Virus record (IMG/VR): IMGVR_UViG_3300044825_001651
Location: 1 to 32,676 of that record
DNA length: 32,676 nucleotides
Source: a virus
Strand: one strand, 5' to 3'
The first letter of the stretch is position 1. Each line of letters begins with the position of its first letter. Positions 12,585 through 20,136 of this stretch are shown here, one piece after another. Under the pieces are notes generated by a model. The model was not told the DNA's origin and did not search any database. It worked only from the letters and a program-made list of their open reading frames with translations. Made by a program: the position numbers and the translations under genes.

Positions 12585-14474
12585 ATGACCTTCGCTGCAC
12601 CGATCGCCGAAAGAACCTGGGAACAGAAATATCGGCTGAAAGAGTTCAACGGAACTCCGATTGATGTGACAGTGCAGGACACCTGGGCACGGATTGCAGC
12701 AGCCCTTGCGAAGGCTGAGGACGATCCCGCATATTGGGAACAGCAGTTCTATCGCGCTCTTGAAGATTTCAAGTTCCTTCCGGCCGGTCGCATCATCGCT
12801 GGCGCTGGTGCCGAACGCAGTGTGACCCTGTTCAACTGCTTCGTCATGGGAACGATCCCTGACTCCATGGACGGCATTTTCAGCGCGCTTCGTGAAGCGG
12901 CTCTGACCATGCAACAAGGCGGTGGCATCGGTTACGACTTCACCCCGATCCGCCCGAAGAACGCTGAGGTGAAGGGTGTTGCTGCTGACGCAAGCGGTCC
13001 TCTGTCGTTCATGGACGTGTGGGATGCGATGTGCCGCACGGTGATGTCGGCCGGTTCACGCCGCGGGGCGATGATGGCAACGATGCGCTGCGACCATCCG
13101 GATATCGAGGCCTTCATCGAAGCCAAGCGCGATCCGGCCCGTCTTCGCATGTTCAACCTCTCGGTCCTGGTTACCGACGATTTCATGACCGCTGTCAAGA
13201 ACGACGACCTCTGGCCGTTGTATCACCGCACCTTCCCCGGCGTCGGCCGCGACATCGGTTCGGTGGTTGGAAGCGACGGTGTTCGCCGCTACATCTACAA
13301 CGTGATCCGCGCCCGTGATCTCTGGGAAAAGATCATGCGCTCGACCTACGACTATGCCGAGCCGGGTGTGATCTTCATCGACCGGATCAATGCGGCGAAC
13401 AACCTGAAATACATCGAGACGATCGCCAGCACCAACCCGTGCGCGGAACAGCCGTTGCCGCCCTACGGGGCCTGCCTGCTGGGTTCGATCAACCTGACGA
13501 AGTTCGTCGATGGTCCGTTCACTTCTATCGTGCAAGTCAACTGGAAATCGCTTCGGGATGTCGTCGCGATCGCCGTCCGGATGATGGACAACGTGATCGA
13601 CGTGACCGGCTTCCCGCTGCCGCAGCAGGAACAGGAAGCGCGGAACAAGCGCCGGATCGGCCTCGGTGTGACCGGCCTGGCTGACATGCTCGTCATGCTC
13701 GGCATGACCTATGGCACCGTCGAAGCGGCACAGTTCACCGAGCGACTCATGAAAGAGGTCGCCGAGGCTGCTTACTGGGCGTCGGTCGACCTCGCTCAGG
13801 AGAAGGGCTGCTTCCCGCTCTTCGACGCAGACGAGTATCTGAAATCCGATCACATGCTCGGAATGGATGAGGGGCTGCGTGAGACGATCCGCGAAGTCGG
13901 CATCCGGAACTCGCACCTGACCTCGATCGCTCCGACCGGCACCATCAGCCTGTACGCTGGGAACATTTCCAGCGGGATCGAGCCGATCTTCGCCCATGGT
14001 TACAAGCGGAAGGTGCTTCAACCGGACGGCTCGAAGATCGAGGAAGTGGTCGAAGACTACGCGGTCGCGGCTTACAAGACGAACTGGATCGCCGATCACG
14101 GTGGCAATTTCGAAATTGCCGACCAATGGGACGACTCCTATCTCCCAGAACACTTCGTTACTGCTCAGACGCTCGCGCCCGAGGCACATCTGCTGATGCA
14201 GGCAGCAGCCCAGCGTTGGGTCGACTCGTCGATCTCCAAGACGATCAACCTGCCGCGTGAGATCAGCTTTGAGGATTTCCAGGCGGTCTATCTACGGGCC
14301 TACGACCTCGGGTGCAAGGGCTGCACGACCTACCGGCCGAACGATGTCACTGGCAGCGTCCTGGAAGTCGCTGAGGTGCAACCCGAGCCGATCGCTACCG
14401 ATGGCGATGAAGGTGGTGCCTGTGAACTGATCATCGACCCAGAGACCGGTCAACTGATCAAAAGCTGCGAGTGA
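12585..14474 (+). CDS. nrdJ: Class II (adenosylcobalamin-dependent) ribonucleotide reductase
   Basis: This 629-residue enzyme starts at the ATG at 12585, five bases after GGAG. It makes deoxyribonucleotides from ribonucleotides using adenosylcobalamin to generate a thiyl radical. Visible class II/R1-like features are C85 in LFNCFVMG, N284-P-C286-A-E288 (the radical cysteine and catalytic glutamate), the cysteine in GACLLGSINL, and the PTGTISLYAGNISSGIEP loop near 445. The C-terminal GCKGCTTYRPN and final LIKSCE give cysteines for reduction by thioredoxin-like partners. There is no adjacent small-subunit (R2) gene, which fits a single-chain class II enzyme. It supplies dNTPs for the nearby polymerase and needs host B12. 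Confidence 0.93.
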   Translation: MTFAAPIAERTWEQKYRLKEFNGTPIDVTVQDTWARIAAALAKAEDDPAYWEQQFYRALEDFKFLPAGRIIAGAGAERSVTLFNCFVMGTIPDSMDGIFSALREAALTMQQGGGIGYDFTPIRPKNAEVKGVAADASGPLSFMDVWDAMCRTVMSAGSRRGAMMATMRCDHPDIEAFIEAKRDPARLRMFNLSVLVTDDFMTAVKNDDLWPLYHRTFPGVGRDIGSVVGSDGVRRYIYNVIRARDLWEKIMRSTYDYAEPGVIFIDRINAANNLKYIETIASTNPCAEQPLPPYGACLLGSINLTKFVDGPFTSIVQVNWKSLRDVVAIAVRMMDNVIDVTGFPLPQQEQEARNKRRIGLGVTGLADMLVMLGMTYGTVEAAQFTERLMKEVAEAAYWASVDLAQEKGCFPLFDADEYLKSDHMLGMDEGLRETIREVGIRNSHLTSIAPTGTISLYAGNISSGIEPIFAHGYKRKVLQPDGSKIEEVVEDYAVAAYKTNWIADHGGNFEIADQWDDSYLPEHFVTAQTLAPEAHLLMQAAAQRWVDSSISKTINLPREISFEDFQAVYLRAYDLGCKGCTTYRPNDVTGSVLEVAEVQPEPIATDGDEGGACELIIDPETGQLIKSCE

Positions 14475-19165: not shown

Positions 19166-20136
19166 CCTACCTGAACCGGATCGAGCATCCGGCCTACTAC
19201 AACGACTTCGACGAGGGGTCGGTGGAATGGCTGCGCGAACTCATGAAGCAGGGTCTCATCCCGGCCGGTGAGATTGATGCCCGTTCGATCCTTGAAGTGC
19301 AAGCGTCTGACCTCATCGGTTTCACCCAGGCTCATTTCTTTGCCGGGATCGCTGGATGGCCCCTCGCTCTACGTCTTGCCGGTATCCCTGTCGATGTCTC
19401 GCTGTGGACCGGCTCTCCCCCATGCCAACCTTTCTCCGTGGCAGGACTCCAAGAAAGCCGTGAAGATGAGCGACACCTCGCCCCCCATTTTGTCGATCTG
19501 GTCGGGGTTGCCCGCCCCGGAGTGCTGTTTGGCGAACAGGTCGCCAGCGCGGAAGTCTTCGGAAAGGCTCCAAAGCGTTCTAGAGGAAACGTTGTCCCAC
19601 CGCCTGACTGGGCTTGGATCGACGATTTATCAGATCGCCTGGAAGCCGCACGTTACACCGTTGGGGCGAGCGATTTCCCGTCAGCGGGCGTCGGGGCACC
19701 GCACATCCGTCAACGGACGTATATCGGAGCAGTATCCGAAGAGTGGCTGGTCAACCGCATCGGCTCGGGACTGGAAGGATTCGGCCGGGATGACGGTCGA
19801 GGCTGTGAACCCGGATGGCTCAGAGAGGATACGCCTGGATCAGCTTCCGAGACAGGCACAGTTGGCGAAAGACAGCCCGGCCCGACTAACGGCTTCTGGG
19901 GAAATGCTGACTGGCTCCTCTGTCGGGACGAGAACTGGCGGGCTGTTGAACCCCGAACATTCCCGCTGGCTGATGGGTTTCCCGCCAGAGTGGGGCTGCT
20001 GCGGGGTTACGGCAACGCTATTAATCCGCGACAAGCGAAAGTCTTCATCAAAGCGTTCTTCGAAGCCGTTGAAATCTTCATCCGCGGCGAACCTAAACAG
20101 GTCGCTGATCTTAGCCTTGATGGGTTGATTGTTTGA
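19162..20136 (+). CDS. C5 cytosine-specific DNA methyltransferase
   Basis: This 324-residue enzyme starts at the ATG at 19162, overlapping the alpA-like stop. It would transfer methyl groups from S-adenosylmethionine to cytosine C5. Motif I is FFAGIAG (59-65), motif IV GSPPCQPFS with catalytic C88, motif VI GEQV with E125, motif VIII IRQR (182-185), and motif X GYGNAINP (282-289). The target-recognition region is short, about 190-265. No restriction partner is adjacent, so it is probably an orphan that protects phage DNA or alters gene expression. Its +1 frame also contains a long ORF, described separately. The last base overlaps the next ATG. Confidence 0.92.
   Translation: MTYLNRIEHPAYYNDFDEGSVEWLRELMKQGLIPAGEIDARSILEVQASDLIGFTQAHFFAGIAGWPLALRLAGIPVDVSLWTGSPPCQPFSVAGLQESREDERHLAPHFVDLVGVARPGVLFGEQVASAEVFGKAPKRSRGNVVPPPDWAWIDDLSDRLEAARYTVGASDFPSAGVGAPHIRQRTYIGAVSEEWLVNRIGSGLEGFGRDDGRGCEPGWLREDTPGSASETGTVGERQPGPTNGFWGNADWLLCRDENWRAVEPRTFPLADGFPARVGLLRGYGNAINPRQAKVFIKAFFEAVEIFIRGEPKQVADLSLDGLIV
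19466..20128 (+). CDS. Candidate overlapping protein in +1 frame of methyltransferase gene
   Basis: An ORF open from 19268 to 20128 in the +1 frame lies wholly inside the methyltransferase gene; I place the start tentatively at ATG 19466 (MSDTSPPILSIW), giving 220 residues. It is the longest same-strand overlapping frame in the window. It reads like a protein: GSTIYQIAWKPHVTPLGR, RASGHRTS, GWSTASARDW and LNPEHSRWLMGFPPEW. The last resembles the segment preceding motif X in other C5 methyltransferases. From memory, similar frames are annotated as hypothetical proteins beside phage methyltransferases. Conservation of the main frame could by itself make such a frame recur, so translation is unproven. 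Function is unknown. Confidence 0.4.
   Translation: MSDTSPPILSIWSGLPAPECCLANRSPARKSSERLQSVLEETLSHRLTGLGSTIYQIAWKPHVTPLGRAISRQRASGHRTSVNGRISEQYPKSGWSTASARDWKDSAGMTVEAVNPDGSERIRLDQLPRQAQLAKDSPARLTASGEMLTGSSVGTRTGGLLNPEHSRWLMGFPPEWGCCGVTATLLIRDKRKSSSKRSSKPLKSSSAANLNRSLILALMG

Follow-up and report, generated by a model that had tools for sequence, protein, structure and literature searches.

The C5 methyltransferase gene of the window (the whole stretch of DNA analysed, a virus record of 32,676 bases) appears to encode two proteins from a single DNA stretch, and we consider it quite probable that the second one, translated separately in the +1 frame, supplies the small domain, with target recognition and motif IX, of a two-subunit m5C methyltransferase. 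According to this proposal, which is drawn from sequence comparisons, the frame 0 protein (alpha) would be the catalytic large domain, with motifs I–VIII and X, and the +1 protein (beta), translated on its own from an internal ATG just upstream of alpha motif I, would bring the target-recognition region together with motif IX (LNPEHSRWLMGFPPEW). Alpha and beta would bind each other to form a heterodimeric enzyme of the M.EcoHK31I kind in which beta would be necessary for activity, and this enzyme would probably methylate phage DNA. The small-domain role is attributed to beta because of the split loci found in other viruses, a segment that lies in-frame in actinophage enzymes, and a gap in the AF2 model of alpha. 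If this is true, silent positions in the gene of one subunit spell out the DNA-recognising part of its partner.

The gene lies between an excisionase-like gene and a terminase small-subunit gene, and Rhodobacter phages such as RcPescado (Casjensviridae) present the same gene order and an open +1 frame as well. An earlier note on this DNA had read a methyltransferase with motifs I, IV, VI, VIII, and X in frame 0, which we could confirm over 324 codons (Table 1). It had also pointed to the +1 ORF, which is indeed the longest same-strand overlap in the window according to a program-made ORF list (286 codons counted from the GTG and 283 from the ATG), and the segments that it quoted from this ORF (GSTIYQIAWKPHVTPLGR, GWSTASARDW, and LNPEHSRWLMGFPPEW) are all present; from the bases under the last of these, frame 0 reads TFPLADGFPARVGLLRGYGNAI, as had been stated. 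Judging from the sequence, the ATG at 19277 is the best candidate for the beta start, in preference to the GTG at 19268. Each of the two overlaps the third position of an alpha codon, codon 39 (GAT) in the case of the ATG and codon 36 (GGT) in that of the GTG, and both can therefore be abolished by changes that are silent in alpha. Elsewhere in the window, the ribonucleotide reductase large subunit gene (12585–14474; phrog_84, E = 1e-161) has an open frame of 377 codons on its opposite strand (13056–14189).

Table 1. Positions in the window of the two overlapping proteins and of their motifs and predicted segments.
Feature	Position	Strand	Remarks	Basis
alpha, cytosine-C5 DNA methyltransferase, frame 0, 324 aa	19162..20136	+	motifs I, IV, VI, VIII, X	
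beta, +1-frame nested protein, 283 aa	19277..20128	+	alternative GTG start 19268 (ORF 19268..20128)	
GGTGA, Shine–Dalgarno-like	19267..19271	+	5 nt ahead of ATG 19277	sequence
alpha motif I (FAGIAG)	19339..19356	+		alignment of relatives
alpha motif IV (SPPCQPFS), catalytic Cys	19414..19437	+	C88 invariant	alignment of relatives
alpha motif VI-type (GEQVAS)	19531..19548	+	GEQV invariant	alignment of relatives
alpha motif VIII (GAPHIRQRTYI)	19693..19725	+	beta RASGHRTSVNG over same bases	alignment and sequence
beta residues 82–140, predicted helix and beta-hairpin, includes GSTIYQIAWKPHVTPLGR	19520..19696	+	pLDDT about 72–90	AF2
beta GWSTASARDWKD	19745..19780	+	family consensus WPTPxAxD, repeated in longer members	
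alpha residues 204–284, variable/TRD interval, motifs VIII to X	19771..20013	+	mostly without confident fold	AF2
beta motif-IX-like segment LNPEHSRWLMGFPPEW	19946..19993	+	segment profile matches single-frame actinophage methyltransferases	
alpha motif X core (GYGNAI)	20005..20022	+	helix 289–308, pLDDT about 94 at start	

The open +1 frame of the window gene taken by itself is only moderately unusual (1–2% of shuffles): the stop-free stretch was kept in 118 of 5000 synonymous-codon shuffles and the longest +1 run was equalled in 59 of 5000. Because so many shuffles stay stop-free, a single gene proves little; a comparable +1 frame is absent from the nine other large genes of the window that were examined. 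The relatives, fetched by the frame 0 protein and reduced to 56 non-redundant loci (three annotated phages were included as well, two of which had come up as +1 matches), contain nine +1 stops where 157 ± 8.5 were expected, and the +1 frame is stop-free in 49 of the 56 versus 2.9 expected. Stops are therefore rare in the homologues, where the earlier note had considered that frequent ones would speak against its reading. In the same loci, the +2 frame, used as a control, shows 480 stops versus 491 expected, and no depletion was seen in the +2 or antisense frames. A second group of methyltransferases behaves like the first (4 stops versus 210 expected in 65 loci). When 112 loci were divided along the gene, +1 stops were scarce both over motifs I–VIII (8 versus 194 expected) and over motifs VIII–X (7 versus 184), and upstream of the beta start they were not depleted (115 versus 88); the open frame of beta is thus shown computationally, at the level of sequence, to start at the internal start region. 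The shuffles preserve the codon use of each gene but take no account of codon context, for which the +2 frame and canonical enzymes serve as controls, and in 24 canonical cellular C5 methyltransferases from 21 bacterial genomes +1 stops were at expectation. As these enzymes also form a separate clade, an open +1 frame is not something to be expected of C5 genes in general.

A beta-frame start preceded by a Shine–Dalgarno sequence is present in the start region of 77 of 133 relatives, versus 29.5 ± 4.8 expected, typically in the form GAAAGGAGTATTGAAGATG, which alpha reads as ERSIEDV; a simple scan found no such start in the other 56, and the position of the start codon varies within the family, with no single fixed place. 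Two further candidate arguments were dropped. The column-wise amino-acid conservation of the +1 frame relative to synonymous shuffles was discarded because shared ancestry also lifts the +2 frame (z 44 versus 73 for +1), and the basic pI of beta, a possible hint of DNA binding, is a by-product of the frame (pI 11.0 in shuffles versus 10.4).

Selection on silent sites points in the same direction as the stop counts. The third positions of alpha are the second positions of beta, so that a third-position change that is silent in alpha nearly always alters beta. Between the window and RcPescado, identity at four-fold sites is 97/129 in the overlap and 231/471 in the flanking integrase and terminase genes (Fisher p = 9e-8), despite alpha having a lower protein identity (0.76) than the terminase (0.91). 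The test of frame 0 synonymous sites that had been suggested in the earlier note thus revealed an excess of constraint and, together with the scarcity of +1 stops in relatives, it supports the dual coding proposed there. In 25 pairs of loci, four-fold identity and amino-acid identity were 0.80 and 0.89 for alpha over motifs I–VIII, 0.87 and 0.74 for alpha over motifs VIII–X, and 0.65 and 0.79 in the flanks. As silent sites are more conserved than alpha amino acids over motifs VIII–X, beta would be the frame most guarded by selection there; selection thus seems to be dominated by alpha over motifs I–VIII and by beta over VIII–X. For the +1 frame, dNN/dNS was 0.42 in the methyltransferase versus 0.71 in matched flanks. 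Some of the 25 pairs may have exchanged modules by recombination, which alone is not a sufficient explanation because it would not put silent-site conservation above amino-acid conservation. Taken as a computational demonstration from sequence, these data show that beta is selected as a protein and that the openness of the +1 frame is not due to chance.

Beta is widespread. The window protein matches phrog_31772 (E = 7e-20) and phrog_1008 (E = 9.6e-16), and PHROG_1008 was matched by all members of the sets of beta relatives analysed (112/112, 60/60, and 19/19). Wherever both proteins were matched, beta was in the +1 relation to alpha (160/160 viral loci and 80/80 loci in bacterial genomes). 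The VEWLMGFP DNA pattern led to 81 further places, although locus sets obtained by a pattern are biased at the motif itself, and all but two of them, truncated or odd, show the full +1 relation to an overlapping ORF that, in those read, belongs to the second C5 methyltransferase group, of the PCQDIS type. The beta families of both groups match PHROG_1008 and are homologous (hhalign 99.9%, E = 1.9e-36), and the sequence comparisons show computationally that beta is one ancient family across phages. Some 'noC5' VEWLMGFP loci had been candidates for a stand-alone beta and were rejected, as their other frames show a PCQDIS-type methyltransferase, truncated loci excepted. The search for homologues encoded away from methyltransferases, also suggested earlier, found no stand-alone one; all were nested, split, or partly merged.

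The split and merged forms suggest what beta does. In 20 split viral loci, alpha ends right past motif VIII and an overlapping +1 ORF carries on with LPTP repeats, the segment RLSSRFTEWMMGLPxGW, and motif X (GNGVVPQQ), this ORF being homologous to nested beta (E = 8.7e-24 and 3.4e-12); GordDuk1 is an annotated phage with this arrangement. The longer +1 beta ORFs of other phages hold an LNPxxxxWLMGFPxxW segment and motif X. Moreover, in the actinophage methyltransferases of SchottB, Neville, Moonbeam, and Chanagan, which were found by frame 0 similarity, the beta segment lies in-frame directly before motif X. A profile of the segment matches 4/4 of them at that place with E values from 1e-7 to 5e-4 (Z = 1000), above all of 315 shuffled sequences, in agreement with the resemblance of LNPEHSRWLMGFPPEW to the stretch before motif X of other C5 methyltransferases claimed in the earlier note. 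Other single-frame loci agree with an in-frame beta segment, but they were chosen by that motif.

A tree built on the catalytic core places the canonical enzymes in a clade of their own (100/99) and the nested group of the window in another (100/100); the second nested group and the split and single-frame arrangements are mixed outside the canonical clade in a way that needs several changes. This intermixing indicates that the overlap is old and that changes between arrangements have happened repeatedly. We lean towards the view that these phage C5 methyltransferases form a very large, old family of two-subunit enzymes whose +1 recognition subunit has moved among nested, overlapping, and single-frame forms. 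If so, these genes are among the widest and longest-lived same-strand nested pairs known. The family is also a clean model in which to study the sharing of one DNA stretch by two proteins.

The predicted structures are consistent with this division of labour. Alpha matches phrog_363 (E = 2.9e-63) and PF00145 (34 bits, cut-off 22), and the core of its AF2 model matches M.HhaI-type structures in Foldseek (M.HhaI, E = 1.4e-7). Most blocks up to residue 200 were modelled at pLDDT 84–97 and the motif X helix at about 91–94; residues 204–237 and 266–284, the expected place of the small domain, stay below 50, and alpha is thus predicted by the model to fold without a target-recognition region. A profile found no LTPRExxRLxGFP-like motif in frame 0, the absence of so short a motif being weak evidence. 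Alpha may retain some recognition function, as its sequence suggests, since the alignment of relatives shows that frame 0 keeps its own conserved DWLxCRDGKxRPVEPG ahead of motif X. The beta model has a low overall confidence (63.6), being confident mainly at residues 82–140 and around the WLMG helix, and PDB sequence and fold searches returned nothing above noise. A profile of the canonical cellular motif IX was not significant against beta, so the motif IX identity of its segment rests on the phage intermediates; when the profile of the beta segment was compared with canonical enzymes, its best weak match fell on their motif IX in about half of the 19 that were listed.

The two-subunit reading has to be weighed against several others. 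Of the two readings that the earlier note offered, the one of a second protein stands, though the evidence favours a subunit belonging to the methyltransferase itself over a protein with an unrelated role. A beta that is a real protein overprinted on the methyltransferase gene with a role unrelated to methylation (for instance a regulator or an anti-restriction factor) would fit all the coding evidence, and it would suit the fact that beta has neither conserved catalytic residues nor a known fold. An open +1 frame with the N-terminal signature of beta also seems to be kept in the single-frame methyltransferases of SchottB and Neville. We nevertheless regard such a role as unlikely, as no beta homologue was found off a C5 methyltransferase, the VEWLMGFP loci overlying one too, and as it leaves unexplained why the C-terminal segment of beta is found elsewhere within the methyltransferase polypeptide, beside motif X.

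If ribosomes entered the +1 frame from alpha by programmed frameshifting, the product would be a fused or hybrid methyltransferase; this would account for the likeness of the C-terminal half of the +1 frame to methyltransferase sequence, and in the split loci a shift from alpha into the +1 ORF would complete the set of motifs. However, the +1 frame is protected from the internal start onwards, motifs I–VIII included, where a later shift would need no protection; starts with a Shine–Dalgarno sequence are enriched at the internal start region, and motif X would be lost in the nested loci, all of which makes frameshifting highly improbable. Even less can be said for the view that the +1 ORF is not translated and simply reflects composition, codon use, or a frameshift in the past. 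The few shuffles of the window gene that are equally open and the basic charge that the frame itself confers on beta are what it would explain, but the stop depletion across the family with the +2 frame at expectation, the silent-site constraint, the Shine–Dalgarno enrichment, and the lack of any effect in the canonical C5 methyltransferases of 21 genomes refute it, as far as sequence evidence reaches.

A two-subunit enzyme, as we propose for the window, has a known counterpart. The beta of M.EcoHK31I, of 176 aa, is read from another frame inside its alpha; the beta of the window has 283 aa. This enzyme (YGGCCR) is reportedly a two-polypeptide C5 methyltransferase, a finding attributed to Lee, Kam and Shaw in 1995. 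Its larger polypeptide contains motifs I–VIII and X and a predicted TRD, and the smaller one motif IX (PMC3404938), and it has been described as 'naturally split' (PMC3439449). The division of motifs would be the same as that of alpha and beta here, the motif IX of our beta being recognised through the phage intermediates, but the window gene is a phage gene adjoining terminase genes, with no restriction gene among the neighbours examined. In M.AquI (CYCGRG), alpha holds motifs I–VIII and beta motifs IX–X (PMC3404938), a split between motifs VIII and IX like that of the split phage loci (L482, L501, L530, and others), whereas in the window alpha retains motif X and the whole of beta is nested. 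M.HhaI and Dcm, whose fold the modelled alpha core resembles in the case of M.HhaI, have all their motifs in one frame with +1 stops at expectation, and belong to the separate canonical clade. ShiLan-type actinophage methylases hide an HNH endonuclease in an alternative frame (PMC11855218) and so also have an alternative-frame protein within a phage DNA methylase gene; however, that is an inserted homing endonuclease, and the beta of the window has no nuclease match in Pfam, PHROG, or NCBIfam and belongs to a family that spans motifs I to X.

The proteins named 'Mte8-like' or 'internal gene' in K1H, K1G, Lily, Diva, and PhiXhv-5, as well as PHROG_1008, are the same +1 beta protein. These entries are separate overlapping CDSs named DNA methyltransferase, and the accessible records and literature on these phages state no second-subunit role for them. 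Both proteins are annotated in K1H, Lily, Diva, PhiXhv-5, and PhiXhv-28, only frame 0 in N15, epsilon15, RcPescado, and the RefSeq E. coli prophage and plasmid copies looked at, and only beta in PMG1. PHROG_1008 and PHROG_31772 are labelled 'DNA methyltransferase', yet they match beta, which is without catalytic motifs. As automatic annotation mostly retains one frame, many gene tables lack beta or enter it as a separate 'DNA methyltransferase'. In the literature covered, which is incomplete, we found no account of such a nested phage pair as the subunits of one enzyme; the arrangement is known biochemically from one bacterial enzyme, and its ubiquity in phages seems to have been mostly overlooked. 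This matters in practice, since cloning such phage methyltransferases as a codon-optimised single ORF would destroy beta and could yield an inactive enzyme.

Several loci deserve a separate comment. In the SchottB, Neville, and Moonbeam loci (L600, L601, and L602), a long open +1 frame persists with the N-terminal signature of beta, exemplified in Neville by SWKTYPGTGKQDSTRFSGTWPRMG followed by PTPRSAD; if this frame is under selection in the single-frame actinophage enzymes, beta would have a role beyond motif IX. In two other loci, the beta frame continues stop-free into a downstream coding region, a D12-class N6-adenine methyltransferase in one (L068:2646–4394; PF02086, E = 3e-61) and a recombination endonuclease VII in the other (L172:2586–3914; PF02945, E = 6e-24). 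They are either fusions or downstream genes that lie in the same frame by chance. Since such a gene may be translated from a start of its own, the read-through is ambiguous and we did not accept it as a proof of translation; the KpV2811 annotation lists the endonuclease as a separate gene. Finally, among four copies in bacterial genomes (L411, L421, L433, and L413), three have stops in alpha with beta open and one shows the reverse, and they are possibly decaying prophage copies.
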